Below are positions 4,860 through 24,698 of a stretch of DNA of 64,000 bases, piece after piece; the first letter of the stretch is position 1; each line of letters begins with the position of its first letter. The translations under genes were made by a program, and so were the position numbers. Below the pieces are notes generated by a model that ran no database searches, was not told the origin of the DNA, and saw nothing but the letters and a program-made list of their open reading frames with translations. This DNA comes from Actinomyces dentalis DSM 19115 (GTDB lineage Bacteria; Actinomycetota; Actinomycetes; Actinomycetales; Actinomycetaceae): the NCBI RefSeq assembly GCF_000429225.1, contig NZ_AUBL01000003.1, positions 62,001 to 126,000 of the forward strand, given 5' to 3'.

Positions 4860-6479
4860 TCAATTCGAGACCGCGACCCCGATGGTAGAATCTGTCTCCC
4901 GATGCGCCTTCGGAGGAACAACGGGATTACGGATGGCATTGCCCGGCCCGTCCGTCCGGCGGCGGGCGAGACACATTGTCGTAGAAACCGCGCCGAGGTA
5001 GGCCAGCACTCCCACCAGCCAAACCCCCATCGGACTGATGGGGATGCTCCACCACCACGTCACGCGCGCATTGAGGCTGAAAATCCGGTCGCCGGGATCA
5101 GCCCCGATCGCACTGACATAACGTTGAATCAACGTGTGCAGCGCAATGGCGTGGACCGTTGTGGACAGAAGGACGAACAGCACCGTCTGCCCCCGGGAGA
5201 GCAGGGTGCGGCGATCGTCGATGACCAACCAGACCAGAAAGGTCACGGCCAGCAGCGGGAGTACGTAACGGGACTGGTACTCCCATACGCGGAAGGATCC
5301 CGTCATGCCGATGACCACTGGAATACCCGCCATTGCGCCGAGCATGATCGTCATCGACGCCGCCCGTCGCCAGCTCATCGCACGCGCACCGGCGAAGACG
5401 GCGGCGCCGGCCAGCCCCACGGCGAGCACCGCAGCGGGTCCGTCGAGCGGGATGTCGAGCCAGCCCATCCCCCGTCCCCGCCCCTGTCCGTAGAAGCCTG
5501 CGAAGTAGCCGGGAATCTCCATGAGATTGCGGTACAGCCGTGTGCGCCACGGAATACCTTCATCCGGCGCCCCGCCCAATGCGGAAGTCTGCCCGAGACC
5601 CGACATGTTGATGATTCCCACGACGCTCGCAGCGGCGGCGACAACCGCATGGGGAATCAATCCACGACGCCATCGGACTCCTGCGAGCACCGCGAGAGAG
5701 ACGACGAACACATAGAAACTGGAATCCGCCCGCGAAGCGAAGGCGAGCACGGCGCCGAGCAGTCCGAGGCCGAGAAGAACCCACTGCCGCCCGCCCTCGG
5801 ACCGAACCGAGGCGTACAATCCCAGAGCATAGGCGAATACGCCTGTTATCGCCCACGAACTGGGATTGTTGGAGGCTACGAAGTAGATCCCCATCGGAAT
5901 CCAGGACGCCAGCAGCGCCATAGCGACCCCTTCTCGCAGGCGCACCGGCATAAAATAAGCGATAGCCCCCAGAAGCGCTACTGCGATGAGCACATTGACG
6001 CCGCGCATGATGAGCACCGACCGCTCCACGTCGTGCCCCACCAGAAGGTGGTGGAACCGATAGTATCCGGTAGGATAATTGCCGTCATCGTAACGCCTCG
6101 AGTACGAACTCCTATCGTCTGACAGGGAAAGTCTGCAGGCCGCGGAGCGATCAAATACAAAGGCATAGCACACGGGGCGACCGACGGCTTCCGGAACCAT
6201 GACCTCGGTCACGCCGTCGACGACGCGCGTCTGACACCCCGAGGAGGCCACGGGCCGGGGGCACCAGATGCTCCCGAGGTGGTAGTCGTCATCCGGAGAG
6301 CCGGCGACGGGTGAGGACACCACCCAAGCCGCTCCGACGATCAGCACCGCAAAGACCAGCACGACGCAGGCCGCTCGCCCCCGATGGAAGCGCCTGACTC
6401 GACCGATCCAACGGCTGCGTCCCGTCTGCGCCACCGTACTACTGGTGGAGCGCCCATTCATGTCCATCGACGTTCTCAC
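4860..6479 (-). CDS. DUF2142 family polytopic membrane protein
   Basis: A 539-residue integral membrane protein. After a basic N-terminus (residues 1-35) comes one helix (ACVVLVFAVLIVGAAWVV), then the DUF2142 hallmark SPDDDYHLGSIWC in an extracytoplasmic loop, then about ten further helices. DUF2142 proteins cluster with polysaccharide genes and resemble GT-C transferases or polymerases; their chemistry is not established. The GTG at 6479 overlaps the stop of rmlCD as GTGA, which supports coupling; an ATG four codons later is an alternative. Codon choice is clearly less GC-biased than in rmlCD next door, a sign of separate acquisition. It lies upstream of the DPM1-like GT2 that could supply its lipid-linked sugar. 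Confidence 0.75.
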   Translation of the reverse strand: MRTSMDMNGRSTSSTVAQTGRSRWIGRVRRFHRGRAACVVLVFAVLIVGAAWVVSSPVAGSPDDDYHLGSIWCPRPVASSGCQTRVVDGVTEVMVPEAVGRPVCYAFVFDRSAACRLSLSDDRSSYSRRYDDGNYPTGYYRFHHLLVGHDVERSVLIMRGVNVLIAVALLGAIAYFMPVRLREGVAMALLASWIPMGIYFVASNNPSSWAITGVFAYALGLYASVRSEGGRQWVLLGLGLLGAVLAFASRADSSFYVFVVSLAVLAGVRWRRGLIPHAVVAAAASVVGIINMSGLGQTSALGGAPDEGIPWRTRLYRNLMEIPGYFAGFYGQGRGRGMGWLDIPLDGPAAVLAVGLAGAAVFAGARAMSWRRAASMTIMLGAMAGIPVVIGMTGSFRVWEYQSRYVLPLLAVTFLVWLVIDDRRTLLSRGQTVLFVLLSTTVHAIALHTLIQRYVSAIGADPGDRIFSLNARVTWWWSIPISPMGVWLVGVLAYLGAVSTTMCLARRRTDGPGNAIRNPVVPPKAHRETDSTIGVAVSN

Positions 6480-7930
6480 AGGATCGTGGGAACGTAGGCA
6501 TCCAGTCGCTCCATGGAGTCACCGGGAACGAAACCGGCGGACTCGATCTTGCTCAGGTCCAGGGCGCTGCTGAGCGGGCGCGGGGCGATGCCCTCCTGTC
6601 CGGCGTAGTACTCCTCGGTGGTGACCGGCGTCACCTCGTCCGGGCTGTGCCCCACGAGCTCGTAGACGCGCTTGGCGACGTCGCACCAGGAGACCACCGG
6701 ACCCTCGCCCGAGAGGTTGTAGGTGCCGAACTCGGCCCGCGTCGTCAGCAGGTGGATGATCCCGGCGGCCAGGTCCGCGGTGAAGGTCAGGCGCCCCGTC
6801 TGGTCCGCCACGACCTTCGGGGCGACGCCGCGCCCGGCCAGCGAGGCCATGGTCCGCGCGAAGTTCCTGCCGTCGCCCACGACCCAGCTGGTGCGCACCA
6901 GGTAGTGCCTCGGGGCCGCCTGGACGGCCGCGTCCCCGCCGGCCTTGGACTGCCCGTAGACGCCCAGCGGGCTCGGCGGCTCATCCTCGGTGTGGACCGG
7001 GACGGTCCCGTCGAAGGTGTACTCGCTGGAGATGTGGACGAGTGTCAGACCGCGCGCGGCGCACTCGCGGGCGAGATTCGCCGGCCCGGTGGCGTTGGCC
7101 CTCCAGCTCTGGCGCCGCCCGTCGGGAGTTTCGGCGCCGTCGACATTCGTCCAGGCCGCGGCGTTGATGACGACGTCGTAGGCGGACCAGTCCACCTCCG
7201 CCATCTGCGCGGCGTCGGAGATGTCGAATTCGGGCAGGTCCACGCCGGTGGCCGTGAAACCGGCCCGCGGCAGCTGCGCCATGAGCTCGCGGCCGAGCTG
7301 GCCGAGCGCGCCCGTGACCAGGACGCGCCGGCCGGGCGCGTCGGCCGCGGGGAAGGGGGTGACCTGCGCCATGCGGGGGTGGGCCCGGTCCTTGTCGGAC
7401 AGGATCGCCCGCTCCAGGGGGATGGGCCACGGCACCGCGGCGGTCTCGTCGGCGAGGTTGAGGGAGGTGTACCGGGCCGACGGCGACCAGTGGTCGTTGA
7501 CCAGGTAGGTGTAGGCCGTGTTCGGCTCGAGGGTCTGGTAGGCGTTGCCCACGCCCCTGGGCACGTAGACGGCCACGGAGGGGTCGATCTCGGTGGTGTA
7601 GACGGTGCCGAAGCTCGGCCCCTCGCGCAGGTCCACCCATGCGCCGAAGACCCGCCCCGTGGCCACGGAGACGAACTTGTCCCAGGGCTCGGCGTGGATG
7701 CCCCGGGTCACCCCGGGCTCGTCGTTGAAGGAGATGTTGTTCTGAACCGGGCCGAAGTCCGGCAGACCCAGCGCGACCATCTTCTCGCGCTGCCAGTTCT
7801 CCTTGAACCAGCCGCGGTTGTCACCGTGGACGGTCAAATCGATGCGCAGGAAGCCGGGGATCGGCGTGGTCTCGACGCTCAGGGACTTGGACGTCTCGGT
7901 GCTCGCAGTCATAGTCTCCATCCGGTTCAT
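6476..7930 (-). CDS. rmlCD: Fused dTDP-4-dehydrorhamnose 3,5-epimerase / dTDP-4-dehydrorhamnose reductase (RmlC-RmlD)
   Basis: A bifunctional 484-residue enzyme for the last two steps of dTDP-L-rhamnose synthesis. Residues about 15-195 form the RmlC cupin with HGDNRGWFKENWQ, GVTRGIHAEPWDKFV (active-site His) and YVPRGVGNAYQTL. Residues about 205-484 form the RmlD short-chain reductase with VTGALGQLGREL (NAD(P) loop), INAAAWTNVD and the YGQSK catalytic Tyr/Lys. Such fusions occur in actinobacteria. The start is uncertain: ATGs lie at 7930, 7921 and 7912, and only the last two have a nearby GGAG or CCGG. Its partner rmlB lies 12 kb away at 19565, and rmlA (glucose-1-phosphate thymidylyltransferase) is not in the window. 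Confidence 0.93.
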   Translation of the reverse strand: MNRMETMTASTETSKSLSVETTPIPGFLRIDLTVHGDNRGWFKENWQREKMVALGLPDFGPVQNNISFNDEPGVTRGIHAEPWDKFVSVATGRVFGAWVDLREGPSFGTVYTTEIDPSVAVYVPRGVGNAYQTLEPNTAYTYLVNDHWSPSARYTSLNLADETAAVPWPIPLERAILSDKDRAHPRMAQVTPFPAADAPGRRVLVTGALGQLGRELMAQLPRAGFTATGVDLPEFDISDAAQMAEVDWSAYDVVINAAAWTNVDGAETPDGRRQSWRANATGPANLARECAARGLTLVHISSEYTFDGTVPVHTEDEPPSPLGVYGQSKAGGDAAVQAAPRHYLVRTSWVVGDGRNFARTMASLAGRGVAPKVVADQTGRLTFTADLAAGIIHLLTTRAEFGTYNLSGEGPVVSWCDVAKRVYELVGHSPDEVTPVTTEEYYAGQEGIAPRPLSSALDLSKIESAGFVPGDSMERLDAYVPTIL

Positions 7931-10347: not shown

Positions 10348-11369
10348 GCTGCGCCGGTCCCCGCGCGCCCGCCCCCGGCGGCGCCGACTCCCGTCCGACC
10401 ATCCGCGTCGTCGTCGTCAACTGGCGCCGGCCGGATCTGACCATCCGGGCCTGCGAGTCCATCCGCCCCCAGCTGCGGGGCGGCGACCGGCTCGTCGCGG
10501 TCGACAACGCCTCGGCGGACGGCTCCGCCGCGGCCCTGCGCCGGGCGGGGCTGGATGTGGTCGAGACGGAGCGGAACCTGGGCTTCGGCGCGGGGGTCAA
10601 CGCCGGCGCGGCGGGCCTGGGCGAGGACGTCCTGGTCCTGCTCAACAACGACGCCGTCGCCGCCCCCGGCTTCCTCGACGCCCTGACCGCCCCGCTGGGG
10701 ACCGGCGGGGACCCGTCCCTGGCGGCGACGACGGCGCTCATCCTCCTGGCGGGCCGCTGGCGCCCCGCCCGCAACGGGGAGACATTCCTCACGGGTCTGG
10801 ACGGGAGCCGGTGGACGCGGGTTCCCGCCGACGCCGAGGCGCGCGGCGAGGGGGAGGTGCTCGTCAACTCCACCGGCAACCTCGTGGACCCCTCCGGCAA
10901 CGGCTACGACCGCGACTGGCTGGTCCGGGCGGACCGGCTCGACTCCCCGGCCGAGGTCTTCGGCCTGTGCGGGGGCGCCTGCGCGATCCGCCGCGGCGTG
11001 TGGGAGGAGCTGGGGGGCCTGCGCGAGGACCTGTTCATGTACTACGAGGACACGGACTTCTCCTGGCGGATCCGGGAGTCGGGACGCCGGGTGGAGTTCG
11101 TGGCCGGCGCCGTCGCCCGTCACGAGCACGCCGCCTCCTCCGGGGCCGACTCCCCCATGTTCGTGCGCGTCAACACCCGCAACCGGATCCTCGTGGCGGC
11201 CGAGCACGCGCCGTGGCCGGTCCTTCTCCGGGCCCTGGCGCGCACGACGGCGCGGGCGGCCCGGCACGGCCTGCGCGGCCCGGTGGCCCGGGGGCTGCGT
11301 CAGGCGCTCAGCAGGTTCCCCGCCGAACTCGCCCGGCGACGACGCCGACCGAAATTTTATCAGCGCTGA
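10344..11369 (+). CDS. Family 2 glycosyltransferase, rhamnosyltransferase-like
   Basis: A 341-residue GT-A enzyme. The nucleotide-binding start is TIRVVVVNWRRPDLT and VAVDNASADGSAAALR, with ETERNLGFGAGVNAGAAGL. The metal-binding motif is LLNNDAVAAPGF, and the acceptor region is GLCGGACAIRRGVWEELGG followed by MYYEDTDFSWRIRESG. This ED-DW pattern is typical of dTDP-rhamnosyl and related transferases. GTG 10344 overlaps the preceding stop. At its 3' end the gene overlaps the convergent 846-residue gene by ten bases, leaving no room for a terminator. Given rmlB and rmlCD in the same region, L-rhamnose is a reasonable donor, but this is inference. Confidence 0.85.
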   Translation: MSCAGPRAPAPGGADSRPTIRVVVVNWRRPDLTIRACESIRPQLRGGDRLVAVDNASADGSAAALRRAGLDVVETERNLGFGAGVNAGAAGLGEDVLVLLNNDAVAAPGFLDALTAPLGTGGDPSLAATTALILLAGRWRPARNGETFLTGLDGSRWTRVPADAEARGEGEVLVNSTGNLVDPSGNGYDRDWLVRADRLDSPAEVFGLCGGACAIRRGVWEELGGLREDLFMYYEDTDFSWRIRESGRRVEFVAGAVARHEHAASSGADSPMFVRVNTRNRILVAAEHAPWPVLLRALARTTARAARHGLRGPVARGLRQALSRFPAELARRRRRPKFYQR

Positions 11370-13900
11370 AGACCCATCTGCCGCCTGATGCGCCCCTGGA
11401 CGCGTCTGACGACCTCTTTGGGCCCGCCCGCCTTCATATAATCGACCGCCAGCTTGAGATCGCCCTTGATGGAAGGCTTACGAGGCGGAAAGGCGTGAGC
11501 GCGAAGGCCGGAACCCGCCGGCGTCTTGCCGGTCAGGACAAGGTCCCGAGCACGGTGCGGGTCGGCGCAGAACCTGACGAGGGGCTCCAGGACGGTGGCC
11601 CACCGGAACTGCTCGGCGTACCGAGCCACGCGCTCGCGCGCACTGGCCGCCGCCTCCTCGTCGTAGAGCATCTCCTCCAGCGCCGACTCCAGGGCGTCCA
11701 CGTCCTGCGGCGGAACGCCGCGTCCCAGCCCCTCGGCGTCGAGCACGTTGCCGAAGGAGTCGCCCGTCGTGGCGACGATCGGCAGACCCGTCCACAGGTA
11801 ATCGAGGATGCGGGTGCGGAAGGAGAAGGCGGTCTCGACGTGCTCGAAGTGAGTCGATACGCCGACGTCGGCGTCCATGAGGACGTCAGCGCGTTCGTTG
11901 TAGGGCACCCAGTCGGAATTGAAGAAGATGTATCTGCCCGCCAGCCCCATCTTCTGAGCAAGCCGTTTGGTCTCCCAGGCCATTTTCATGTCGGGCACTC
12001 CGGGATTGGGGTGCTTCATGCCCATGAAGTACAGGCGGACATCCGGATGGCGCTGTGCGAGCCTGCCGACGGCCCTCACGAGGGTGAGCGGATCGAACCA
12101 GTTGTAGACCCCGCCGCCCCAGATGATGATCTTATCGTCCATGCCGATTCCGGGCACGGCGCCACGGATACCATGTCTCCTCTGCACGGGCGCCTCATCC
12201 TGGATCCCGAAGGGGACAACAGAGACCAGGGAGTCGAGGTCCTCATTGGGAGCCACGGTGAGGGGGTTGATCCGGTTGACGCTCGCAAGTTGCCCGAGCC
12301 AGAAGAGCCTCTGCTTCTCGGAGGCGCACAAGAAATAATCGGCCCGCATCAACTGCTTGTTCAGGACGTCGGTCACGGAGAAGATGGCCTCGCGACGACC
12401 GACGGTTCCAAGGTCCTTGGCCTGCTCCAGCTGCTCCAGGTGCATCGGATCGTAGATATCGGCGACGATGATCTTATCCGAGTCGATGAGCCATGGCGCC
12501 CCCTCGAGGAGGAAGCCCTGGAACACAATGACATCCGCCCAGTCAGTATGAGCGCGCAGATGATCGCCCTGGGCGTAGTGGATCTCGAAGCGAGGGTCCT
12601 CCACATCCTTCACGCCGGTCGTCGAGAGCAACCGCACCGGATGGGACTGGGAGAGGGCCGCCGCCATCTCCCATGCGCGGATGGCGGGGCCGGCAAGCTT
12701 GCTGGACAGCGGCTCCCCCGTGACAACCAGGACGTGGGGGGAGGAGATGAAGAGCCGGTCAATCCCGAAGGAGTCGACCAGGACCTCGTGACCCTTGAGG
12801 TAGTGCTCGACGGGGTAGGCGGGCTCGATGGCGTGGCGGAAGAGCGGGAACAGATCCTTGTCGCTCACGGCACGAGCCCGCTGGAGCTGTGCACGGGTCA
12901 CCGCGAGGGAGTCGAGCTGCTCGTTGAGGTAGTCGACGGCGTAGACGCCGGTCAGACCCATCTTCGGCACGGAGACCTCGGCGTCGTCCGGCAGCGTCGT
13001 CGTGTCGACGTCCGCGCGGGCCGTTCCTCGTCGCACGGCCAGGGAGATGGCTGCGGGCAGGGCGACGCGCAGCGTCTCGTCCTCGTAGTTCTTATACAGG
13101 GAGAGCAGCGCGTTGCGCTCCAGGAGATAGGACTCGCGATAGTTGCCGAATTTCTTCATCGTCACATGGTGACGGTGATAAGCCACGGAGCCGGGCACAT
13201 AACGGACCCTGCGTCCCAGCAGATTGATCCTCCACCCCAGATCCACGTCTTCGTAGAACATGAAGAACCGCTCGTCGAATCCGCCGATCTCCCGGAAATA
13301 GGCGGCGGGCACGAACATGGCGGCACCGGTTCCGAACAGAACGTCCTTGGGCGTCTCATAAGAGCCGTCATCGATCCATTCCGCCTCGCGCTTGTAACCC
13401 ATGCCGTACCAGGTGAGCGAGCCGTCGACGTAATCCACGAGCTTTCCATCCCAGTCGAGCACCTTGGAGGCCACTGCGCCGATGGTGGGATCGGCCTCCA
13501 TCGCGTCGACCGCTGCTTTCACCCAGCCCCGCGCGGGACGAGCATCGTTATTGATGAAGGCGACATACTGTCCGGTCGCATTCTCAACGCCGAAGTTGCA
13601 CCCGCCGGCGAAGCCGAGGTTACTGCCCGAGGGCAGGACGCGTACGCGGGGGCAGGCCTGGGCGATGGTCTCAGCGGACCCGTCCTGGGAGTCGTTCTCG
13701 ACGACGATGAGCTCAAGACGGTCCTGGGGCCAGTCGATGTTGTCGAAGTATCTCAGACAGGCGATGGTGTCCTCGGCGCCCTTGTAGTTGACGAGAATGA
13801 CGGAGACGACGCCGTCGCGGATCTCATGCTCGCGCTGGAGCAGATGGGCTCTGGACGGATCCGGATTGAGGGCCTGCGGAATGCAATTCTCGATCGGCAT
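11360..13900 (-). CDS. Bimodular glycosyltransferase, GT2 plus GT4 domains
   Basis: An 846-residue cytoplasmic protein with two catalytic modules. Residues 30-260 are GT2: VVSVILVNYKGAEDTIACLR, VVENDSQDGS, SNLGFAGGCNFGV, metal-binding FINNDARP and FMFYEDVDLGWRINLLG. Residues about 380-780 are GT-B/GT4-like: SPHVLVVTGEP, HTDWADVIVFQG, ADIYDPMHLEQL, IIWGGGVYNWFDPLTLVRA and FRTRILDYLWTGLPIVAT. A linker (280-370) includes LPAAISLAV and GLTGVYAVDYL. The C-terminal tail (812-846) is a basic amphipathic helix, DLKLAVDYMKAGG through GRIRR. Such fusions make two successive linkages. ATG 13900 begins two bases after the stop of the upstream paralogue at 13902, so they are one operon. Composition is less GC-rich than in flanking GT4s. 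Confidence 0.85.
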   Translation of the reverse strand: MPIENCIPQALNPDPSRAHLLQREHEIRDGVVSVILVNYKGAEDTIACLRYFDNIDWPQDRLELIVVENDSQDGSAETIAQACPRVRVLPSGSNLGFAGGCNFGVENATGQYVAFINNDARPARGWVKAAVDAMEADPTIGAVASKVLDWDGKLVDYVDGSLTWYGMGYKREAEWIDDGSYETPKDVLFGTGAAMFVPAAYFREIGGFDERFFMFYEDVDLGWRINLLGRRVRYVPGSVAYHRHHVTMKKFGNYRESYLLERNALLSLYKNYEDETLRVALPAAISLAVRRGTARADVDTTTLPDDAEVSVPKMGLTGVYAVDYLNEQLDSLAVTRAQLQRARAVSDKDLFPLFRHAIEPAYPVEHYLKGHEVLVDSFGIDRLFISSPHVLVVTGEPLSSKLAGPAIRAWEMAAALSQSHPVRLLSTTGVKDVEDPRFEIHYAQGDHLRAHTDWADVIVFQGFLLEGAPWLIDSDKIIVADIYDPMHLEQLEQAKDLGTVGRREAIFSVTDVLNKQLMRADYFLCASEKQRLFWLGQLASVNRINPLTVAPNEDLDSLVSVVPFGIQDEAPVQRRHGIRGAVPGIGMDDKIIIWGGGVYNWFDPLTLVRAVGRLAQRHPDVRLYFMGMKHPNPGVPDMKMAWETKRLAQKMGLAGRYIFFNSDWVPYNERADVLMDADVGVSTHFEHVETAFSFRTRILDYLWTGLPIVATTGDSFGNVLDAEGLGRGVPPQDVDALESALEEMLYDEEAAASARERVARYAEQFRWATVLEPLVRFCADPHRARDLVLTGKTPAGSGLRAHAFPPRKPSIKGDLKLAVDYMKAGGPKEVVRRVQGRIRRQMGLQR

Positions 13901-13901
13901 T

Positions 13902-15395
13902 TTAGTTGTTCCCCCTCGCAGTGGCGACGCGTCGGATACGACTCCCGACCTTACCCATCACATTCTTCACTCCGCCCTCGCGCATGTAGCGCACGGCCAG
14001 AGCGAGGTCACTGGGCCTGCCCGCCTGAGCGACGGCCTCCGCGGCCGAGGAGGAGCCGGCGTCGGCGGCGCGCAGCGGCCGACGGCAGAAGGCCTCCAGC
14101 ACCTCGCCGTCCGGATCCGCGGCCACGAGACTGTTGAGCGACGGGTCGTTGTCGTACACGATGTCGTTGACGCGCCCCGTGCCCGCGAGCGCTCCGAGGA
14201 CGAGGTCCCGCTGAGCCTCATCCGCCACGAGGATCCGGTCGGCGCGTTCCATGAGCGCTTCCAGCGCCTGGGCGCGGTTGCCGGTGCGTGCGGTGTTCAT
14301 GAGCCATCCGAGCACGTCGAGCGTCGACAGGTCCACGATGAGGGGCACCTGCGAGAAGCCGGCGCCGGGGGCGTCGTCGAGAACCGTCTCAATGAGAACA
14401 ATCACATCCGCCCACTCCGTGTGATCGGCGGTCAGCCCCGGCAGCACGGTGCCGTCCTCGGTGACGACGTTCGCGGGGCCGTTCACCCGGCGGACCCGCA
14501 CATCGCGTCCGAGCCGCGCCAGAAGCTCGTCCGCTCGCGCGGATCCGCGGCCCTCGGCCGGGGTCACGACCAGGACGTGCATCGGTTCCCACATCACCTC
14601 GTCCAGTCCGGTCAGTCGGGCGATCCTGTCGAACTCGCGGCCGTGAGCCGCGGAGTCGATACCGAGGATCGTGGGAAGCGCCACCGCGATCATCTGCGCC
14701 AGCGCCACGTCCGGCACTCGACGCACGCGCTGGATGTAGTTGCGCACGCCACGGGCGTCCGAGAGGTTGTCGAGCGCCCCGTCAACGGCGTAGGCGCCGA
14801 CCAGGCCCCGCGTCGGCACGCGCAGGTCGCCGATGTCGTCCCCCCCGGGCGAGCGCTGAAGGTCGAGCGTCGTGGTGTCCGTGCCCGAGTCGGCCAGGAC
14901 CCCGGTCACCGCGAGCAGTTGCGCCGCGGGCAGCAGTACACCCCGCCATCGATCGCTCAACACCACGTCGAGTACGGTGAGCAGCCCGCGACGGCGGAGC
15001 ATCCGGCCCTGGTCCGTGGCCGGCTCCTCCACCCGCGGCGACCCGGCCACCGTGACAACGTGCTGGCCGAGGAGGTTCAGGCGCCACTGGACGTCGAACA
15101 GGGCGGTCTCGGGATCGGCGAAGCGGCCCTCCCCCCCGACGTCCACCAGGACCTCCCGGCCCAGCCAGTCGAGAAGCTCCTCGCGCACCAGGAGCGTGTC
15201 GGTCAGGACGCCGATGACACGAACGTCCGCGTCGTCGCGCGTGTAGGCCAGGGCGCCGGCGTCGCCGAGCAGCAGGTCATGCGCGTTCCCCTTCAGAACG
15301 TTGAGGGGGACGCATGCTTCCCGGCCGCGCACCGTGAGGGCGCACACCCCCGGAACCACGGGATGAACCGCTGCGAGATCCGCGTATGAGGCCAT
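13902..15395 (-). CDS. Degenerate, probably non-catalytic paralogue of the adjacent GT2-GT4 protein
   Basis: A 497-residue protein that aligns by eye along most of the 846-residue neighbour but lacks both catalytic cores. Shared blocks in order are WRLNLLGQHV (neighbour WRINLLGRRV), LPAAQLLAV, DTTTL, GLVGAYAVD, MHVLVVT, HTEWADVIV, LMERADRILVADEAQRDLVL (neighbour LMRADYFLCASEKQRLFWL), NSLVAADPDG and the tail DLALAVRYMREGG to SRIRR. The GT2 nucleotide-binding part with NNDA is absent, and only about 30 residues replace the roughly 240-residue GT4 donor lobe. The ATG at 15395 has AAGGAG nine bases upstream and a TACGAT box at 15435-15430. The intact frame suggests a conserved structural or regulatory partner rather than a dead gene. 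Function unknown. Confidence 0.7.
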   Translation of the reverse strand: MASYADLAAVHPVVPGVCALTVRGREACVPLNVLKGNAHDLLLGDAGALAYTRDDADVRVIGVLTDTLLVREELLDWLGREVLVDVGGEGRFADPETALFDVQWRLNLLGQHVVTVAGSPRVEEPATDQGRMLRRRGLLTVLDVVLSDRWRGVLLPAAQLLAVTGVLADSGTDTTTLDLQRSPGGDDIGDLRVPTRGLVGAYAVDGALDNLSDARGVRNYIQRVRRVPDVALAQMIAVALPTILGIDSAAHGREFDRIARLTGLDEVMWEPMHVLVVTPAEGRGSARADELLARLGRDVRVRRVNGPANVVTEDGTVLPGLTADHTEWADVIVLIETVLDDAPGAGFSQVPLIVDLSTLDVLGWLMNTARTGNRAQALEALMERADRILVADEAQRDLVLGALAGTGRVNDIVYDNDPSLNSLVAADPDGEVLEAFCRRPLRAADAGSSSAAEAVAQAGRPSDLALAVRYMREGGVKNVMGKVGSRIRRVATARGNN

Positions 15396-15435: not shown

Positions 15436-15565
15436 GCAACAAGAGGGGCCCGGTACAGGGGCGCCCCAGCGCCCCGCGCATCTGCTGATGGGGTCTTGAG
15501 GGTACAGTGACCGGGTCGACCGTATGGGGCGACGAACCCGACGCCCGGCCTCCAGGAGGATTCAC

Positions 15566-16471
15566 GTGTCAGCTGCCTCGGAGCGAGAGATGCGGATCGC
15601 GCACGAGTCGTTCAGACCCGCCACCCCCAGAGTGACCTTCGTCACAGGCACTCGTTCTTCCCTTCTGGACCTGTGGAACAGGCGCGATCTTCTGATCCGG
15701 CTCACGCGCCGGGAGATACGTGCGCGCTACAAGGACTCGGTGCTGGGGATCGCATGGAGCCTTATTAAACCGATTGTCAGCCTTCTGATTTACGTGCTCG
15801 TGATCGGCAAGGTCATGGGTGCAGAGCGCTCCATCCCGGATTTCGCGATATACGTTTTCACCGGCCTGACCGCCTGGCAGCTCTTCAGCGATATCATATC
15901 GGCGTCGACCGGCTCCATCGTCGGCAACTCGGGGATCATCAAGAAGATCCACCTGCCTCGGGAAATATTTCCACTGGCTTCGACGGGCGCCTCGCTGTTC
16001 AATTTCGCAATGCAGTTCCTCATCCTGGTGCTCGCAACGTTCATCATCACCCCTCCCCTCGTGGGATTCAATCTTCTCTATCTGCCCTTGGGGCTCATTC
16101 TCCTCGTCGTGTGGGCCACAGCATTCGGTTTGATCCTGGCAGCGGCCAATGTATACTTCCGAGATATCCAGTACCTTGTCGAAGTCGTGCTCCTCGTCGG
16201 CATGTGGGCCTCACCGATCGTGTACTCCTGGAGCATGGTCACCTCCATCACCGGAGGGGGCGTCGCGATCGAGGAGGCCTACCTGACCAATCCGGTCACG
16301 CTGTCCATCATGGGCTTCCAGCGGGCCATGTGGGCCTCCGGGGCGAATGTGCCGACAGCGCCTCACCTGGGCATCAGGATGATTCTCGCCCTGGCGATCG
16401 GGATAGTGGTCCTCGTGATCGCCCAGCGGGTGTTCTCCGTCCTTCAGCGCAATTTCGCCCAGGAGTTCTGA
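15566..16471 (+). CDS. wzm: Polysaccharide ABC exporter permease (ABC-2 type, Wzm/TagG-like)
   Basis: A 301-residue membrane subunit. A cytoplasmic amphipathic N-terminus (about residues 1-40) leads to the family motif LLIRLTRREIRARYKDSVLGI and WSLIKPIVSLLIY. About six membrane helices follow, with FRDIQYLVEVVLLVGMWASPIVY near the end. GTG 15566 is chosen because AGGAGGA at 15554-15560 sits five bases upstream. The ATP-binding subunit starts three bases after its stop. The pair would export a complete lipid-linked polysaccharide through the membrane, an alternative to flippase/polymerase assembly. Composition is lower in GC than in most of the window: bases 15781-15840 contain 35 G/C of 60. 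Confidence 0.9.
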   Translation: MSAASEREMRIAHESFRPATPRVTFVTGTRSSLLDLWNRRDLLIRLTRREIRARYKDSVLGIAWSLIKPIVSLLIYVLVIGKVMGAERSIPDFAIYVFTGLTAWQLFSDIISASTGSIVGNSGIIKKIHLPREIFPLASTGASLFNFAMQFLILVLATFIITPPLVGFNLLYLPLGLILLVVWATAFGLILAAANVYFRDIQYLVEVVLLVGMWASPIVYSWSMVTSITGGGVAIEEAYLTNPVTLSIMGFQRAMWASGANVPTAPHLGIRMILALAIGIVVLVIAQRVFSVLQRNFAQEF

Positions 16472-16473
16472 AC

Positions 16474-17679
16474 ATGACCGACATCGTCCGAATCCGCAAC
16501 GTCGCCAAGCGCTTCGTCGTCCACAAGGACAAGTCGCTCAAGGAACGACTCGTCAACGCCCGGTCCTCGCGCGCCCATCGTGAGGACTTCTGGGCCCTGC
16601 GCGATATTGATCTGGATGTGCGCGTCGGGGAGACGATCGGTCTCGTCGGCGCCAACGGCTCAGGCAAGTCCACCCTGCTGAAAGTTATCGGCGGCATTCT
16701 GACCCCCGATGCGGGCTCCGTTTCCCTACGAGGCCGCCTGGCCGCTCTCCTGGAGCTCGGTGCGGGATTCCACCCGGACCTGACGGGACGGGAGAATGTC
16801 TACCTCAATGCGGCGATCCTGGGGCTGTCGGAGGCCGAGACCCAGCGTCACTTCGACGAGATCGTCGCCTTCTCGGGCATCGAGGACTTCATCGATACCC
16901 AAGTGAAATTCTACTCCTCGGGCATGTACGTGCGCCTCGCCTTCGCGGTTGCCGTGCACGTGGACCCCGACGTTCTTCTCGTCGATGAGGTCATGGCGGT
17001 CGGGGATGAGCCCTTCCAGCGGAAGTGCATGGACAAGATCCATGAATTCCAGGACGAGGGGCGCACGATCATCCTCGTCTCGCACTCCGCCGCGCAGGTG
17101 AGCGAAGTGTGCGACCGGGCGGTTATGCTCGAGCATGGCCGGATCGTTGTGGATGGGTCGACCGATGAGGTCCTGGGCAGGCTCCGGCACAACTACGAAC
17201 TTGTGATCGAGGCCGAGGAGGCCGCCGAGGCGGAACGGCGCGGGGAACCCGTCGTCGTCCGGCCGGCCGAGCAGTTCATCACCTCAATCGCGCTCAATAA
17301 CACTGCACCCGAGACGCGATTGACGATCGCCCCGGGCGACGATCTCATCGTCTCCGGCACGTTGTCCGCCGCTCCCCCTCTCATTGGCTGGGGGATGTCC
17401 CTGACAATATCCACGGTTCTGGGAGGCGCTGTCCTGGGGACGGACACGAAGATGCTCGGCATCGATCCCCCCGTTATCGACGGCGAGGGCAGTTTCGAGT
17501 TACGACTTCCCGATCTGCGCCTCGGCGAGGGCGACTACTTCGTATCCCTTTCGCTCCTGGACGGGAACCTGGCTGAGATCCACAAGATGCGTGACGCGGC
17601 ATGCTTCACGGTTCACACTCCCGGGCATGCGATAGGCGCCGTCTACAGCGAGCCGCTGCTCTTGGTGATGCCGAGTTGA
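16474..17679 (+). CDS. wzt: Polysaccharide ABC exporter ATP-binding protein with C-terminal sugar-binding domain (Wzt-like)
   Basis: A 401-residue protein. Residues 1-240 are the nucleotide-binding domain: Walker A GANGSGKST, the ELGAGFHPDLTGRENVYLN loop typical of Wzt/TagH, signature YSSGM, Walker B VLLVDEVMAVGDE and switch His in LVSHS. After a charged linker (EAEEAAEAERRGEPVVV), residues about 275-400 form a beta-rich domain like Wzt_C. In O-antigen exporters that domain recognises a terminating sugar modification, so specificity may lie here. ATG 16474 follows AGGAG at 16461-16465. It is convergent with the amidase gene. Together with the permease it forms a complete two-gene exporter. 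Confidence 0.92.
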   Translation: MTDIVRIRNVAKRFVVHKDKSLKERLVNARSSRAHREDFWALRDIDLDVRVGETIGLVGANGSGKSTLLKVIGGILTPDAGSVSLRGRLAALLELGAGFHPDLTGRENVYLNAAILGLSEAETQRHFDEIVAFSGIEDFIDTQVKFYSSGMYVRLAFAVAVHVDPDVLLVDEVMAVGDEPFQRKCMDKIHEFQDEGRTIILVSHSAAQVSEVCDRAVMLEHGRIVVDGSTDEVLGRLRHNYELVIEAEEAAEAERRGEPVVVRPAEQFITSIALNNTAPETRLTIAPGDDLIVSGTLSAAPPLIGWGMSLTISTVLGGAVLGTDTKMLGIDPPVIDGEGSFELRLPDLRLGEGDYFVSLSLLDGNLAEIHKMRDAACFTVHTPGHAIGAVYSEPLLLVMPS

Positions 17680-17746: not shown

Positions 17747-19264
17747 CTACCAGGCGCCGCCGTCGATCTGCTCCTGGGCGATGTCGCGGATCTGCCCCAT
17801 GGCGGAGTAGCCGGCGTCACCCGGGCAGGTGGTGTAGCCGACGTCGCGGTGGGCGGAGATGGTGTCCAGGTCGATGGTCTGGCCCCTGCGGTACTTCTGG
17901 GTCGCGCGGAAGGTGAAGCCGGAGGAGCCGTGGGCGTCCGCGATGCCGGCCCGGGCGAGGAACCAGCCGGCCATCTGGCCGACGCGCTCGATCTGGATCT
18001 CGGAGGGGCTGACGGAGCTGTAGTTGCCCATCATGGAGATGCCCATGGTGCCGGTGTTGGCGCCGTAGGCGTGCCCGCCGACGACCATGGTGCCGGGGTC
18101 GGAGTCGAGCGTGCCGTAGCGCCCCTCGAAGACCTGCCCGTACTTGTCCACCAGGAAATTGTAGCCGATGTCCCCCCAGCCCAGGATGACGGCGTGGTAG
18201 TAGTAGATGCCCCGCACGATCGAGGGGGACTGCTCGGCGGTGTAGTCGTTGGTGCCCGCGGTGTGGTGGACGATGACGTGCTCGGCGGGGGCGTAGTTCG
18301 GCCTCCAGTTCAGGTAGGCGGGGTTCGCGCCCCACTCCTCGCGCGTGGTCACGAGCGCTGACGGGTCGTCCGCCGCGGCGGCCGGGGCGACGGCCGGGAG
18401 CTGGGCGGCGCTCGCGCCGACCGGGTCCTCGGCGGGCCCCCGATCGTCCCGCCGGTCCGGCTGCGCGGCGGCGACGGCGTTCTCCGCCCCGGGCGCCGGG
18501 GCCCGCCCGTCCGCGGGACCGTCGTCGGCGGCCGCGGCGGCCACGCCCGTCGGCTCGGCCTCGGCGGTGCGCACGTCCGCGGCCCCCAGGTCCCTCTCCC
18601 CCGAGGGGCGGTCGGGCACGAGGGCGAGGGTGAGGTCGGCCGGCAGGTCGGCGGCGTTCCCGACGACGGAGGCCTGGACGGCGTCGGCGCCGCCGGTGAC
18701 GAGCTCGTCGGTGCCCGCGCGCCCGGCGCCGTCATCGCGTCCGGCGTCGGAGGGCTCGTTGAGATACCAGGGGGACCACTGGCCGTTCTGGCGCACGCGC
18801 AGGTAGATGCGCACGCCGTCGGGCGGGGCGTCGCCCTCGCCGCCGGTCCACGTGAAACCGGCGACGAGGAAGTCGTCGACCTTCAGCGGGTCGGTCAGGA
18901 TGACGGCGTCGAGCTCGGGGTCGACGGCGTCGGCCCCGGAGTCGGGGGCGCCCTCGGGACCGACGTCGCCGGCGGCGGCCGTCAGGGCGTTGACCGCATC
19001 GGGCGCGGCAGTCGGGTCCGTGCCCGCCGCGGCGTTCGCCAGGGCCGGGGCCCGGGAGGACCGCGCCCCGTCGAGGCCGGAGCGCGCGATCTCGGTGGCC
19101 CGCCCGGACTGCGTGGTCAGGTCCAGGAGCTGGACCGGCGCCGGCGCAGGGGCCGCGGACGCGCCCGGGGCCGGGCCGCCGGGGCAGACGGGGGCGGAGG
19201 CGACGAGGCCCGCGAGGACCACGGGCACGACGAGGGCGGGGCGTAGGTATCGGGGGACCGGCAT
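17747..19264 (-). CDS. Secreted peptidoglycan-recognition-type N-acetylmuramoyl-L-alanine amidase
   Basis: A 505-residue exported protein. The N-terminal signal peptide is a basic start, then LVVPVVLAGLVASAPV. Residues about 35-300 are Ala/Pro/Asp-rich and hold one recognisable beta segment (VAGFTWTGGEG, VRIYLRVRQNGQWSPWYLN). The last roughly 200 residues are an Amidase_2/PGRP fold, REEWGANP, HVIVHHTAG (Zn His), YNFLVDKYGQVFEGRYG, GTMGISMMGNY and SAHRDVGYTTCPG (Zn His and Cys). It would cleave the bond between MurNAc and L-alanine. ATG 19264 lies just after GAAGGAG. It sits between the ABC exporter and rmlB; the link to polysaccharide attachment is only positional. Confidence 0.88.
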   Translation of the reverse strand: MPVPRYLRPALVVPVVLAGLVASAPVCPGGPAPGASAAPAPAPVQLLDLTTQSGRATEIARSGLDGARSSRAPALANAAAGTDPTAAPDAVNALTAAAGDVGPEGAPDSGADAVDPELDAVILTDPLKVDDFLVAGFTWTGGEGDAPPDGVRIYLRVRQNGQWSPWYLNEPSDAGRDDGAGRAGTDELVTGGADAVQASVVGNAADLPADLTLALVPDRPSGERDLGAADVRTAEAEPTGVAAAAADDGPADGRAPAPGAENAVAAAQPDRRDDRGPAEDPVGASAAQLPAVAPAAAADDPSALVTTREEWGANPAYLNWRPNYAPAEHVIVHHTAGTNDYTAEQSPSIVRGIYYYHAVILGWGDIGYNFLVDKYGQVFEGRYGTLDSDPGTMVVGGHAYGANTGTMGISMMGNYSSVSPSEIQIERVGQMAGWFLARAGIADAHGSSGFTFRATQKYRRGQTIDLDTISAHRDVGYTTCPGDAGYSAMGQIRDIAQEQIDGGAW

Positions 19265-20560
<1,296 letters not shown>

Positions 20561-20572
20561 ACCGGGCGCCGG

Positions 20573-22492
20573 TCACTTCTCGCACGCGGTGATCCTGTAG
20601 ACAGTCGCCGTGTCCAGGGTGGCGATCGGGATGAAACCGGTCGAGGTGTCAACGTCGAGGTAACCCGGGTAGCTCTCGCCGATCTCGTCCGAGCTGGCCG
20701 TCGAATCGTCGTAGAACAGCGGTGTACCCCCCTCCTGGCGGATGATCGCGCACACCTCGGGATCCGTGTGCAAATCGCGGAAGTGCCACGCCAGGTAATC
20801 CTGCCGCGGATCGGACGGGCTCCCCACGGAGCCGTGAACGCTCCTTCCGCCGGTCAGCACCCCGACCAGCCCCGCACCGGTCTGCGGCGCCCCGTAGACG
20901 ACGGCGTCGTCGAACACGAAGCGGTCGGTCGTCTCCATATCGCGGCGCTCACCGTCACCGAGCCACGCCGGGTGCACAAGGAAGGCGGAATCGTAGCCGC
21001 GCTGCACCCACATGCGGTTGGACGGCACTTGGCTCAGCGTGATGACGAGGCTGATTACGGCGAGCGCCGCGCTCGCGGGAACTCCTGCCCGATGCCGTGA
21101 GGCCCAGTCGATGGCGGACTGCGTCCCGAGGCCGGCCAGGGCTCCGACGAGCAGAGCCATGAGGGCGAGGTAGCGGTTGTAGTCCCCCCACCACGCGCCT
21201 GTCACGGCCGCGAGGGGCGCCACCGCCGATTGGGCGAGTACTATCAGGGCCGCGCAGACCGACCAGGCCAGAACCAACAGTCTCCTGCTGCGTTCCCGCC
21301 CCAGCGCGATCAGACCCAGACCGGCCAGGAGGAGGAACCACGCGTAGTCCCAGGCGCGCCCCTCCCTCGGTGTGAGGAACAGGGCCAGTTCGACGCGCTG
21401 AAGCAAGGTGCGGGGCTCTCGCGGAAAGGCCGCCATGCGTTGGAGCTGTGCATTCGCCATCATGAGCGCCAGTATCAGAAGACCCGCCGCCCCGACGAGC
21501 ACTCTGGACCGCAGCGCGGGCTTCGCGATCTCCGCCGACCCGGACTCACTACGAGCGATCAGCCGACCGGTGAGGGCCATGACGCAGGCGAGCACGATGA
21601 GAACCTGGCCTCCCCCGGGGTGTGCGCATCCGGCTCCGAGGCTGAGACACGCGACCAGGACGAGACGTCCGCGGAGGCCGTAGGTCCGAAAGGCCTTCTC
21701 CATCGCAGCCAGGGCCCCCGGCAGAAGGGCGATGGCCAGGCCCGTGGGCGTCTGCCCGTTGAAGAACAGGAGGAAGGGCGTCCACATCGTCGAGGCGCAG
21801 GCTGCGCCTGCGACGAGGCAGGCCATCGTCCGGCCGTCGTAGGCCCTGACGAGGACCACGACTTCCACGATTGTCAGACAGATCCCGACGCCCACCAAAG
21901 TCGCGTTGAAAGCTGTGGGAACATCCGTCACCCCCGTCAGGAGCACCGCGACGGCATGGAAGACCGACGGGTAGAAGGAACCTCCGCTGATCGCAGCCGA
22001 AGCGCCCAGGCTGGAGGCCCAACCTGTTGAGCGCATGAGCTCGATGAGGTTGAGATGGAACATGACATCATGATTCTGCAGAAGGGCCCCCGGTCGCCCC
22101 ATGGCCCTGGTGATGAAACAGACCTGCAGAAGCACCGGGATCGCCGCCAGAACCAGGACGCGATGCCCCTCCCGCCACATCCCGATGGCTGCCGTCTTGA
22201 CGCCGCTGCGGGGCTCGCCGCCCCGGATCAGACCCATCCCCAGCGCTCCGACGGCGATGAGGGACAAGGATCCGATCCCGGTGAGCGGTCCCCACGGCAC
22301 GCCGATCCGGCCGAAGACCTCCGTTAAAACGGCGACGAGCAGCACGGTCACCGTCGGCCCGGCACCCCATACGACCATGGGCTCCTGACGCAGAGCCGTC
22401 AGAAGGCAGGCTCCGGGCAGCACGACTATGGCCATGACGAGCACGGCCAGGCCCAGAATCACGAACACGCCCACGCCTCGCTCCTTCGTCAC
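20573..22492 (-). CDS. DUF6541-type polytopic membrane protein (copy 1)
   Basis: A 639-residue protein with about a dozen membrane helices and a C-terminal extracytoplasmic domain of about 130 residues. Shared with the two other copies in the window are an H/D-x-x-FH or YH loop (ALLQNHDVMFHLNLIELM), then YPSVFHAVAVLL, and a tail ending DTATVYRITACEK with Cys near the terminus. The layout resembles GT-C glycosyltransferases that use polyprenyl-phosphate sugars, but activity is unproven. GTG 22492 has no ribosome site, while GTG 22474 has AAGGAG six bases upstream, so the true start may be 22474. A TAGAAT box lies at 22604-22599. Base composition is lower in GC than in copy 2, indicating different histories. 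Confidence 0.72.
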   Translation of the reverse strand: MTKERGVGVFVILGLAVLVMAIVVLPGACLLTALRQEPMVVWGAGPTVTVLLVAVLTEVFGRIGVPWGPLTGIGSLSLIAVGALGMGLIRGGEPRSGVKTAAIGMWREGHRVLVLAAIPVLLQVCFITRAMGRPGALLQNHDVMFHLNLIELMRSTGWASSLGASAAISGGSFYPSVFHAVAVLLTGVTDVPTAFNATLVGVGICLTIVEVVVLVRAYDGRTMACLVAGAACASTMWTPFLLFFNGQTPTGLAIALLPGALAAMEKAFRTYGLRGRLVLVACLSLGAGCAHPGGGQVLIVLACVMALTGRLIARSESGSAEIAKPALRSRVLVGAAGLLILALMMANAQLQRMAAFPREPRTLLQRVELALFLTPREGRAWDYAWFLLLAGLGLIALGRERSRRLLVLAWSVCAALIVLAQSAVAPLAAVTGAWWGDYNRYLALMALLVGALAGLGTQSAIDWASRHRAGVPASAALAVISLVITLSQVPSNRMWVQRGYDSAFLVHPAWLGDGERRDMETTDRFVFDDAVVYGAPQTGAGLVGVLTGGRSVHGSVGSPSDPRQDYLAWHFRDLHTDPEVCAIIRQEGGTPLFYDDSTASSDEIGESYPGYLDVDTSTGFIPIATLDTATVYRITACEK

Positions 22493-22598
22493 ACAAGCAC
22501 AACGTCCACCGCACTCGCGCGTGCCTGCAGGGGAGGAGAACCGCGGGGACGGCGCGCCTTCATACCGAGAGTCCAGGGCACCCGGACCCTCCTCACTG

Positions 22599-22604
22599 AT
22601 TCTA
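22599..22604 (-). promoter_or_regulatory. Candidate -10 box for DUF6541 copy 1
   Basis: TAGAAT on the minus strand in the 142-base gap between two DUF6541 genes. It would give a leader of about 100 bases. No clear -35. Confidence 0.4.
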
Positions 22605-22634
22605 TGGCACTGGGATCCTACGGGAGACTCGCCC

Positions 22635-24698
22635 TCACCCGCAGGCGGTGATGCGCCACAGGGCCACGGCCCCGCGTCCGGTATCCGCCCAGCTCACCAG
22701 CTCCATGCCCCTCGTCGACCAGGCAACGAGCCGATCATCCCAGCGCAGGGAGGCGTTGCCGTAGCGCAGGCCGTGCGGGCTGCGCTCGACGCTCACGTAG
22801 TACTGGGCGCCCAGCCGTTTCACGAGGTCGCAGGTGGCCGAGCCGGGGCTCGGATCCGGGGCCGCCCGCGCCAGGTCCAACTCCGCACTGCCCGCCATGG
22901 GATGGACCCGGGTGGGGTAGACCAGCTCGACGTCGGCCACCAGGCCCAGATAGGTCACGCCGCGCGACGGCGAGCCGACGACGACGGCGCCGGCGGGCAG
23001 CACGTCGCCGACGGAGGCGTAGAAGGCCAGTTCCTGGGGGGTCGTGAGCGTGCCGAAGGCGATCCGCTCGGCGTCGTAGACGCTGCGGGCGAGCGCGATC
23101 TGGAGGGGGATCCGACCGGCCACGGCCACCAGCGCGAGCGAGGCCAGCACCGCGGCGGGTCTGCGCAGCCGCCCCGGGCGCACGGCGCCGTCGGGCGACA
23201 GCAGTGCGACGGTGCCGTGGGCCGCCAGCACGAGCATGGGAATGAGCAGCACCGGTTCGATGCGGCTCTTCTGCAGGTACCACGGGAAGCCGACCTGGCG
23301 CCCGGGCCACTGGGGGCCGCCGACGAGGACGACGAGGACCAGCGCGACGAGCGCGGCCGCAGCCCACGGGCGCACGCGCTCGTCGCGAGCGCCGCGCAGG
23401 CCCAGGACCGCCAGCGCGAGCAGTACGACGCCCACGGGCAGGCCGTGGGAGGCCAGCGGCCCGTACTGGGGCAGATCGATGAGCGCCTGGAAGAGTGTGC
23501 CCACGGCCGAGCCGCCCTCGCGCTCGTAATTGAACATGGTGGTCAGCGGCCCGCGCATCGTCCACGCCCCGGCGGCGGCGGCCAGGGCGGCCGCCACGAG
23601 GCAGACCAGTGCGATCAGCCGGGTCCTCCCGCCGCGGCGCAGCAGCTTCGCCACAGCGCCGACGGCGACGGGCAGGAGCAGGATCGCGGCGTTGAACAGG
23701 CCGGTGCCGTGAGCCAGCGCGACGCCCAGGACCGCCAGGACGGCCGGCGCCGCCGCCTGCGCGCGCCCGTGGCGCTGCGCGACGGCGCGGCGGGCGCGCA
23801 CGACCAGGGTGAGAGCACCGGGCAGGGCGACGACGCTCAGCGCGTAGGGCCATACCGCCAGCGCGGTGAGCAGAAGCACGGGGGCGCCGGCCGTGGCCGC
23901 CGACAGCAGGATGCTCAGCGCCACGGCCTTCTCCCGCGCTCGGTGAGCGGCGCGGGCGTCACGGTCCGCTTCGGCGGCGACGGAGTCAGCGGCGGGAGCC
24001 GGTTCGCGCGGGCCGTCGCGCAGCGCCTCGGTCAGGAGCCCGGCGATGCCCAGCGGCCACGCCACCGCCCCGACGACCAGGATCATCGCGTTGGAGGACT
24101 CCACCGCCCCGCCCGGCAGGAGGGCGACCATGCCGTGCCACACGCTCGGGTAGTAGACGGGGGCGCCCTGGTACAGGGCGGACAGCCCGCCCAGGCTCGA
24201 GGCGCTGCCGCCCTCGCGCACGGCGCCGACCGCGGCCAGGTGGAAGACGGCGTCGAAGGCCTGGGGCGGGGTGGTCGGCGAGCCCATGCCGATGATCAGG
24301 GCCGCGCCCAGCGCGCAGACGGCGGCGCCGACCGCCCCGGTCACGAACCGGGAGGTCCCAACGCCCCCCGTCGCGTCCGCGCCTCCCCCCGGGCGCGACG
24401 GTGCGGACGGACCGGGGGCGCGGGTGCGCCGTCGTGCGCGCAGCAGCGGGCCGGGCAGGGCCAGGGCGCAGGTCAGGGCGGCGATGACCGCCCATCCCCA
24501 GGGGAGCCAGCGCGCACCGATCCTGGCCGCGAGGATCTCCGCCAGGCCCACGACGGCCGAGCCGAGGGGGATGGCCGCACCGGCCGCCGCCCACCGGCGC
24601 AGCCCCCACGACCGGGCGATGACCAGTCCGGGGCCGAGCAGGAGGATCAGGGCCGTCGCCGCCGCCGGGACGGCCCGCCACCAGTCGAGGGCGCTCAT
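22635..24698 (-). CDS. DUF6541-type polytopic membrane protein (copy 2)
   Basis: A 687-residue protein built like copy 1. About twelve membrane helices are followed by an extracytoplasmic C-terminal domain with VELVYPTRVHPM and a tail ending GAVALWRITACG. The conserved first-loop motif reads AFDAVFHLAAVGAVREGG, and YYPSVWHGMVALL follows. Two Arg/Pro-rich cytoplasmic loops (about residues 85-110 and 240-265) are longer than in the other copies. ATG 24698 has no obvious ribosome site; the nucleotide-sugar dehydrogenase ends 42 bases upstream, so co-transcription is likely. It is very GC-rich, unlike copy 1. It could be a lipid-linked sugar transferase or polymerase; function unproven. Confidence 0.72.
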   Translation of the reverse strand: MSALDWWRAVPAAATALILLLGPGLVIARSWGLRRWAAAGAAIPLGSAVVGLAEILAARIGARWLPWGWAVIAALTCALALPGPLLRARRRTRAPGPSAPSRPGGGADATGGVGTSRFVTGAVGAAVCALGAALIIGMGSPTTPPQAFDAVFHLAAVGAVREGGSASSLGGLSALYQGAPVYYPSVWHGMVALLPGGAVESSNAMILVVGAVAWPLGIAGLLTEALRDGPREPAPAADSVAAEADRDARAAHRAREKAVALSILLSAATAGAPVLLLTALAVWPYALSVVALPGALTLVVRARRAVAQRHGRAQAAAPAVLAVLGVALAHGTGLFNAAILLLPVAVGAVAKLLRRGGRTRLIALVCLVAAALAAAAGAWTMRGPLTTMFNYEREGGSAVGTLFQALIDLPQYGPLASHGLPVGVVLLALAVLGLRGARDERVRPWAAAALVALVLVVLVGGPQWPGRQVGFPWYLQKSRIEPVLLIPMLVLAAHGTVALLSPDGAVRPGRLRRPAAVLASLALVAVAGRIPLQIALARSVYDAERIAFGTLTTPQELAFYASVGDVLPAGAVVVGSPSRGVTYLGLVADVELVYPTRVHPMAGSAELDLARAAPDPSPGSATCDLVKRLGAQYYVSVERSPHGLRYGNASLRWDDRLVAWSTRGMELVSWADTGRGAVALWRITACG

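Follow-up and report, generated by a model that had tools for sequence, protein, structure and literature searches.

A gene for a 497-residue protein in Actinomyces dentalis DSM 19115 stands directly upstream of a gene for an 846-residue fused glycosyltransferase. Because each copy has retained, at a few motifs, what the other has lost, the two products are partly complementary remnants of one ancestral protein. No genome in the sample has one of them without the other. We put the probability at roughly two in three that the shorter product (hereafter the small protein) serves the neighbouring GT2-GT4 enzyme (the big protein) as a non-catalytic subunit, supplying in trans the elements that its partner dropped. 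In the sequences compared, the downstream copy has kept both catalytic centres and lost the LDLQRSPGG element of the linker and the QRD...YDxD element of the GT4 N-lobe. The upstream copy has kept these linker and N-lobe elements, lost the GT2 catalytic residues and had its GT4 donor lobe deleted. Made in coupled amounts, the two chains would form a heteromer in which the small protein would provide its N-lobe and linker elements to the big one; the heteromer would replace each chain's part in an ancestral homodimer, the homodimer itself being a guess. The first-pass annotation had cautiously offered a scaffold or allosteric subunit; the reciprocal loss points to a more specific role, that of carrying elements which the partner lost.

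The gene pair, its neighbours and its distribution

In the window (the whole stretch of 64,000 nucleotides that was analysed), the small gene lies on the minus strand, which its first description had left unstated, as does its partner (Table 1). The frame opens with an ATG at 15395 and ends with a stop codon at 13904-13902, while an alternative in-frame ATG upstream, at 15431, would yield 509 residues. Purine-rich stretches that may serve as ribosome sites precede both genes: AAGGAG at 15410-15405 ahead of the small start, and GAGGGG at 13917-13912, inside the small gene, ahead of the big ATG at 13900. This agrees with the earlier description of the 497-residue ORF as an open frame with a ribosome site of its own. 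Its statement that the frame ends two bases before the partner was essentially right, but the actual spacer is the single base 13901.

Table 1. Features of the gene pair and its flank in the window, with domain limits and motifs of both products.
Feature	Coordinates	Strand	Remarks
Small protein gene, 497 aa	13902..15395	-	catalytic-core-less paralogue; candidate non-catalytic subunit
Small residues 1-125, eroded GT2 domain	15021..15395	-	keeps the VGG...F...WRLNLLG end; without NND and ED
Small residues 126-268, linker domain common to the big protein	14592..15020	-	BLASTP and profile-profile alignment
LDLQRSPGGDD motif, small residues 177-187	14835..14867	-	lost in the big protein
Small residues 269-440, Rossmann-like N-lobe half of a GT-B without the C-lobe	14076..14591	-	model and structure comparison
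QRD...YDxDPSL motif, small residues 395-420	14136..14213	-	D397, Y414, D415 and D417 lost in most big proteins
Small residues 459-497, basic C-terminal tail homologous to that of the big protein	13905..14021	-	second BLASTP match
Big partner gene, 846 aa, fused GT2 - linker - GT4	11360..13900	-	
Big NND, residues 117-119	13544..13552	-	present in 18/19 big proteins
Big ED, residues 217-218	13247..13252	-	ED in 18/19 big proteins, DD in G188
Big residues 567-780, GT4 C-lobe (donor lobe)	11561..12202	-	no counterpart in the small protein
wzm-wzt polysaccharide ABC exporter genes, divergent	15524..17679	+	direct neighbour of the pair in 17/19 genomes

Since the neighbours are wzm-wzt, other glycosyltransferase genes and an rfbB-like gene, the product of the pair is probably a surface polysaccharide exported by the ABC transporter, and one that perhaps contains rhamnose. 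A 484-residue ORF at 6476-7930 resembles what we take to be a dTDP-4-dehydrorhamnose epimerase-reductase fusion, as might be expected if the polymer contains rhamnose. The window also encodes an Amidase_2-domain protein at 17747-19312, between wzt and the rfbB-like gene and on the opposite strand, with a homologue near the pair in four of the 18 other pair loci (G036, G024, G120 and G116). Two consecutive large ORFs occupy 20573-24698 on the minus strand, the first of which matches DUF6541 over nearly its full length.

The first-pass annotation had proposed looking for the same pair in related genomes, and had reasoned that homologues uniformly broken or absent in close relatives would speak against its reading. 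Among 213 genomes of the family, homologues of the big protein were found in 50 at E <= 1e-40, as the fused form in 19 and as the GT4 part only in 31. A profile search located the full-length small protein in exactly the 19 genomes with a fused big protein, its other matches across the 213 being GT4 parts and a few weak stretches in long frames. The pair is thus present in 19 of 213 genomes, and a fused big gene without its small neighbour was found in none. Its carriers span seven genus codes (g1, g23, g26, g32, g33, g47 and g49), and close relatives are not devoid of the small gene, which is present in only 3 of 37 same-genus genomes.

Wherever it occurs, the small gene lies directly upstream of the big one and on the same strand (19/19), with a 4-nt overlap in 12 genomes, a gap of 1-2 nt in six and 45 nt in one (G177). 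As to the two loci where the exporter genes are not the direct neighbour, a standalone GT4 and an rfbB-like gene separate the pair from wzm-wzt in G202, and wzm-wzt was not found within the 16 kb read around the pair in G188. G202 (L066, 4218-10744) thereby holds both architectures in one genome, a standalone GT4 plus the small/fused pair; its fused frame stops early, at 766 residues, and similarity continues past a TAA. In G177 (L051:8972-10645), the C-terminal tail of the small protein lies in another frame, through either a draft error or a real change.

Outside the family, 56 loci with a fused single gene were compared, and none had a small-like ORF in flanks of up to 1.5 kb per side, shorter at contig ends (L091: 15 kb in all). 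Two of the five single-gene loci read at length (G416 and G490) share the divergent wzm-wzt neighbour. The genomes with a standalone GT4 were considered as hidden carriers of the small gene and none was found, the 19-row profile meeting their GT4s or short stretches of other proteins in the up to seven candidates scored per genome. Viral contigs searched with the big profile gave no relatives. On one contig of G907 (C94:69867-76205), two fused GT2-GT4 matches, both full-length, stand in tandem with about 1.6 kb between them; this is perhaps an independent duplication with both copies intact, of which the first was read. Second, divergent GT4 matches with two TGA codons inside the match occur in G777, G735, G852, G863 and G904, all of one genus code, possibly where the match runs upstream of the start.

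What each copy has kept and lost

The earlier claim that the 497-residue product matches its 846-residue neighbour block by block is borne out, the motifs quoted for it being present in the BLASTP alignment (31% over 366 residues, 94 bits, E 3e-24 in a single comparison). A second BLASTP match joins the C-terminal tails (44% over 70 residues), and profile-profile comparison of the two proteins gave a probability of 99.6% and E 1.6e-23 over 354 columns. The big protein matches GT2 and GT4 models, all 19 big proteins match PF13692 and PF00534, and the big profile found 21 PDB sequences at E 0.001, with the best stretches all in the GT2 part. The small protein of the window matched no Pfam family at E 1 and no Pfam or NCBIfam family at E 0.1. 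Across the 19 members, matches to these libraries are scattered (DUF6325 at E 0.0026, the best, in one member; DUF7711 at 0.0061 in four; Glyco_trans_4_4 at E 0.028 in one). A search of PDB sequences with the small profile gave no convincing relative, the best being 4hhu (OR280) at E 0.0004 in two weak stretches.

The losses were read from a motif alignment of the 19 small, 19 big and 56 single-gene proteins. We take NND to be the GT2 metal/donor motif and ED to be the region of the GT2 catalytic base. Catalytic residues are missing from these columns throughout the 19 small proteins, five of which have gaps there and 14 other residues, and the motifs are present in 18/19 big and 55/56 single-gene proteins. 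Judged by the NND/DxD donor motif and the ED base region, no small protein qualifies as a GT2 enzyme (0/19). Nor does it qualify as a GT4, a class built of two Rossmann lobes, of which the C-lobe binds the donor: the model shows the N-lobe half only, and the C-lobe columns checked (GGG, E, R, R and D) are gaps in 19/19. The first-pass annotation was accordingly right that the catalytic residues of the GT2 core are gone, but the N-terminal part has not just disappeared: an eroded GT2 half is still there. It was also right that the GT4 donor lobe is nearly absent; this loss is an internal deletion, since the Actinomyces members retain the C-terminal tail, which is poorly conserved beyond that genus and its nearest relatives.

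AlphaFold2 was run on each protein singly, with alignments of 6 rows, and the mean pLDDT of the two models was 45.9 and 46.2. Residues 1-270 of the small protein were modelled too poorly to interpret. Much of 271-438 is usable, with 10-residue block means mostly of 53-87 in the half-lobe, while the YDxD loop (407-421) lies under 50. As modelled, residues 269-446 are a GT-B half-lobe, whose best structural match is GlgM (6tvp_B; Z 12.2, rmsd 3.2 A, 149 residues aligned) in a list that mixes GT-B transferases, epimerases and unrelated Rossmann-like folds. Fifteen residues are invariant across the 19 small sequences, and in the model R287, D355, D386, R396 and D397 are placed at strand ends or first helix turns of the half-lobe. 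Strand ends and first helix turns of a GT-B N-lobe face the cleft. Because of these positions, the likeliest role of the invariant residues would be contact with the acceptor or with a partner lobe. The N-lobe of the big protein is itself conserved, with GPAIR, FQG and DIYDP invariant or nearly so in the 19.

The ancestral state of the linker and N-lobe can be read from the 24 single-gene relatives grouped as f8, which carry an LDLQRSPGGDD-like linker sequence and QRD...YDEDxSL in the N-lobe. In the linker, D178 and L179 are found in 19/19 small proteins, and the D and L in 23/24 f8 relatives; the SPG/RPG form is present in 17/19 small proteins (absent from G188 and G202), and the motif as a whole is absent from distant single-gene relatives. 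In the N-lobe, R396, D397, Y414, D415 and D417 are invariant in 19/19 small proteins. Seven columns (D178, L179, R226, D397, Y414, D415 and D417) are thus kept by every small protein and mostly lost from the big ones, which retain Y414 in 0/19, D415 and D417 in 1/19 each and D397 in 3/19. R226, counted among the seven, has become K in 10/19 big proteins, a mild change. The same N-lobe columns hold among the 56 single-gene proteins (D397 in 55, Y414 in 48 with F in the other 8, D415 in 44 and D417 in 53). They hold also in an alignment of the family's 32 standalone GT4s (from 31 genomes plus the second copy of G202), with Y in 31 and F in one, D in 32 and D in 32 at the YDxD columns, and QRD in 25.

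Of 243 columns that are conserved in the 24 f8 proteins and alignable in the small protein, the big protein has lost 23. The small protein keeps 14 of the 243 at 95% or more, and seven of these fall among the 23 (1.33 expected, p 6e-5). With all 56 single-gene proteins there are 108 alignable conserved columns, of which the big protein has lost four; the small protein kept four of four at 85% or more (0.7 expected, p 7e-4) and three at 95% or more (p 0.002). These p-values, obtained at thresholds of our own choosing, overstate the certainty, because columns within a motif are not independent and the losses of the big protein may be few stem events. Over all conserved columns, retention in the two proteins is unassociated (Fisher odds ratio 0.69, p 0.36), and 14-16 of the 23 columns lost from the big protein are poorly kept in the small one. 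The reciprocal signal is one of a few motifs and no general trend.

G188 (L057:5786-9740) is the single pair whose big protein reads GRS where NND is expected and DD where ED is expected, with its GT4 intact. In its small protein, SPG is gone from the linker motif, while D178-L179 and the YDEDPSL stretch are kept. This was considered as a tie between the linker motif and the GT2 half and rejected, as the small protein of G202 also lacks SPG while its big partner keeps NND and ED.

Descent, constraint and rate covariation

The region that the proteins share was used for a maximum-likelihood tree (389 columns; 82 rows, 12 near-duplicate single-gene rows having been thinned out). All 19 small proteins form a clade (100/100), as do all 19 big proteins (93/97), and both group with the f8 single-gene proteins (98/95). 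Long branches were flagged, that of G188 above all, and the exact attachment of the small stem is unsure. The tree fits a single tandem duplication of a GT2-linker-GT4 gene in the ancestry of the pair-bearing lineages, with which synteny agrees.

The calculation of dN/dS proposed for the small protein gave 0.13-0.32 in 10 species pairs by NG86. In several of these pairs dS approaches or exceeds 1, and the G175/G177 comparison takes in the out-of-frame tail of G177. For the big protein, the nine pairs with a value gave 0.016-0.128. The ratios of the small protein are about 2 to 14 times higher, which is compatible with relaxed constraint; it is under constraint, less than its partner. It has the features of a pseudoenzyme, namely homology to a likely active enzyme with the catalytic residues lost and maintenance by selection across species. 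The first-pass reading of a retained pseudoenzyme and not simple decay has fared well, given a frame open in the 19 pair-bearing genomes (with the G177 tail in another frame), a constant position beside the partner and the dN/dS values above.

Covariation of rates was measured over 18 genomes and 33 branches (G188, for which no wzm-wzt was at hand, was left out), with the topology fixed and the small protein kept out of its construction. The Wzm-Wzt pair, taken as a known complex, served as positive control. The partial correlation of small and big is 0.72 (bootstrap 0.44-0.90), next to 0.67 (0.38-0.86) for Wzm-Wzt, and the four cross-pairs give 0.09 (small-wzm), 0.27 (small-wzt), 0.20 and 0.00. 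In rank form, small-big gives 0.67 and Wzm-Wzt 0.73, with small-wzt and big-wzm at 0.54 each and big-wzt at -0.45; with the two longest branches removed, the values are 0.79 for small-big, 0.76 for Wzm-Wzt and 0.48 for small-wzt. The specificity of the small-big covariation is therefore not clean, as cross-pairs reach 0.54 in rank form and small-wzt 0.48 without the longest branches, and adjacent genes could covary through shared transfer. The covariation supports a joint function of the two proteins and falls short of proof of contact. By region, the small linker covaries with the big GT2 part (0.75) and the small half-lobe with the big C-lobe (0.52). These regional values were set aside as proof, since the whole small protein against single big regions gives 0.19-0.38 once the other big regions are controlled for.

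Alternative explanations and known two-protein enzymes

It is conceivable that the small protein acts without forming a tight stoichiometric complex, as an acceptor-holding or membrane-docking accessory that binds the lipid-linked glycan or the exporter and membrane and so feeds the big enzyme. Such a role would make sense of its acceptor-side lobe, with the five invariant residues at the strand ends and helix starts of the N-lobe half, of the basic tail kept in some members (those of Actinomyces), and of a pair that lies directly beside wzm-wzt in 17/19 genomes with a rank-form small-wzt value of 0.54. We consider it unlikely, as the Pearson values with the exporter (0.27 for wzt and 0.09 for wzm, versus 0.72 with the big protein) and the poor conservation of the tail outside Actinomyces and its nearest relatives argue the other way. 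A more intimate arrangement than the preferred subunit reading requires would be a composite GT4 active site, in which the half GT-B lobe with QRD...YDxD docks on the GT4 of the big protein to complete its cleft in trans, and the linker element of the small protein helps to hold or gate the other half, the whole being one bifunctional synthase. From the sequences compared here, this is quite unlikely.

A protein merely co-transcribed with the big gene, either a binding protein or a transferase with its own substrate, would account for a very divergent sequence in which a set of N-lobe residues is conserved. The donor lobe and NND/ED are absent in 19/19, however, the protein of the window has no Pfam or NCBIfam match at E 0.1, and both co-occurrence and rates tie it to the big protein, which leaves such independence very unlikely. 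Slightly less probable still is a decaying duplicate or functionless passive leftover. The lost catalytic residues, the faster evolution, the presence in 3 of 37 same-genus genomes and the displaced tail of G177 would all suit decay, but a single origin followed by survival in seven genus codes, no fused big gene without the small one in 213 genomes, dN/dS well below 1, 15 invariant residues in 19 sequences and the keeping of residues that the big protein lost do not.

The preferred reading, a non-catalytic subunit of the adjacent enzyme, has precedents in part. One subunit of GtfA/GtfB is a non-catalytic, glycosyltransferase-like co-activator with a full-length GT-B fold, and in Alg13/Alg14 one chain provides the acceptor lobe and another the donor lobe, the donor-lobe polypeptide having no acceptor lobe of its own. 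The small protein differs from the inactive partner of the former, a full-length GT-B, in lacking the C-lobe (19/19) and in also carrying a dead GT2 remnant. It differs from the latter arrangement as well, as the big protein keeps both GT4 lobes with a conserved N-lobe and the small protein is an extra half. The streptococcal adhesin O-GlcNAc transferase GtfA/GtfB (Gtf1/Gtf2) is described as a two-protein glycosyltransferase complex encoded by two genes (PMC5207161), and Alg13/Alg14 as a heterodimeric transferase (PMC9527342). The glycosyltransferase EryCIII works with a partner protein, EryCII (PMC3391682). EryCII is a P450 homologue and no paralogue of its transferase, unlike the small protein, a paralogue of the big one. 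Multi-module polymerases with several fused glycosyltransferase modules, such as ORF6 of Klebsiella O7, belong to an ABC-exporter-dependent pathway; the passages of PMC11231755 on these polymerases mention no dead paralogue subunit, and the word 'inactive' occurs 0 times in its main text.

There is a likeness also to the trypanosomatids, where a catalytically dead paralogue (prozyme) is kept as partner of the active AdoMetDC, and deoxyhypusine synthase is likewise paired with its own dead paralogue (PMC5201418; PMC3663545). According to PMC5201418, active-site helices and strands are missing from the dead copy, as they are here. The trypanosomatid pairs were demonstrated by structure and kinetics, whereas the small/big pair is known from comparative genomics; moreover, the enzyme here is bacterial, has two glycosyltransferase domains and shows a loss that is in part reciprocal. 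In the open-access papers searched with the terms used, no report was found in which a GT2-GT4 enzyme is accompanied by a paralogue that has degenerated reciprocally, nor a heteromer of this kind for any other glycosyltransferase. Dead paralogues as partners and two-protein or split transferases were known already.

Dead paralogues that activate live enzymes are known in modest numbers, and many of the enzymes concerned are eukaryotic. To these the pair adds a case from bacteria that has two catalytic domains and for which the single-gene relatives, the standalone GT4s and the 19 pairs allow the residues that each copy gave up to be read. If the small subunit is required, results obtained with these polysaccharide enzymes in its absence would be misleading, and the QRD/YDxD elements would offer a handle on the general role of this GT4 loop.
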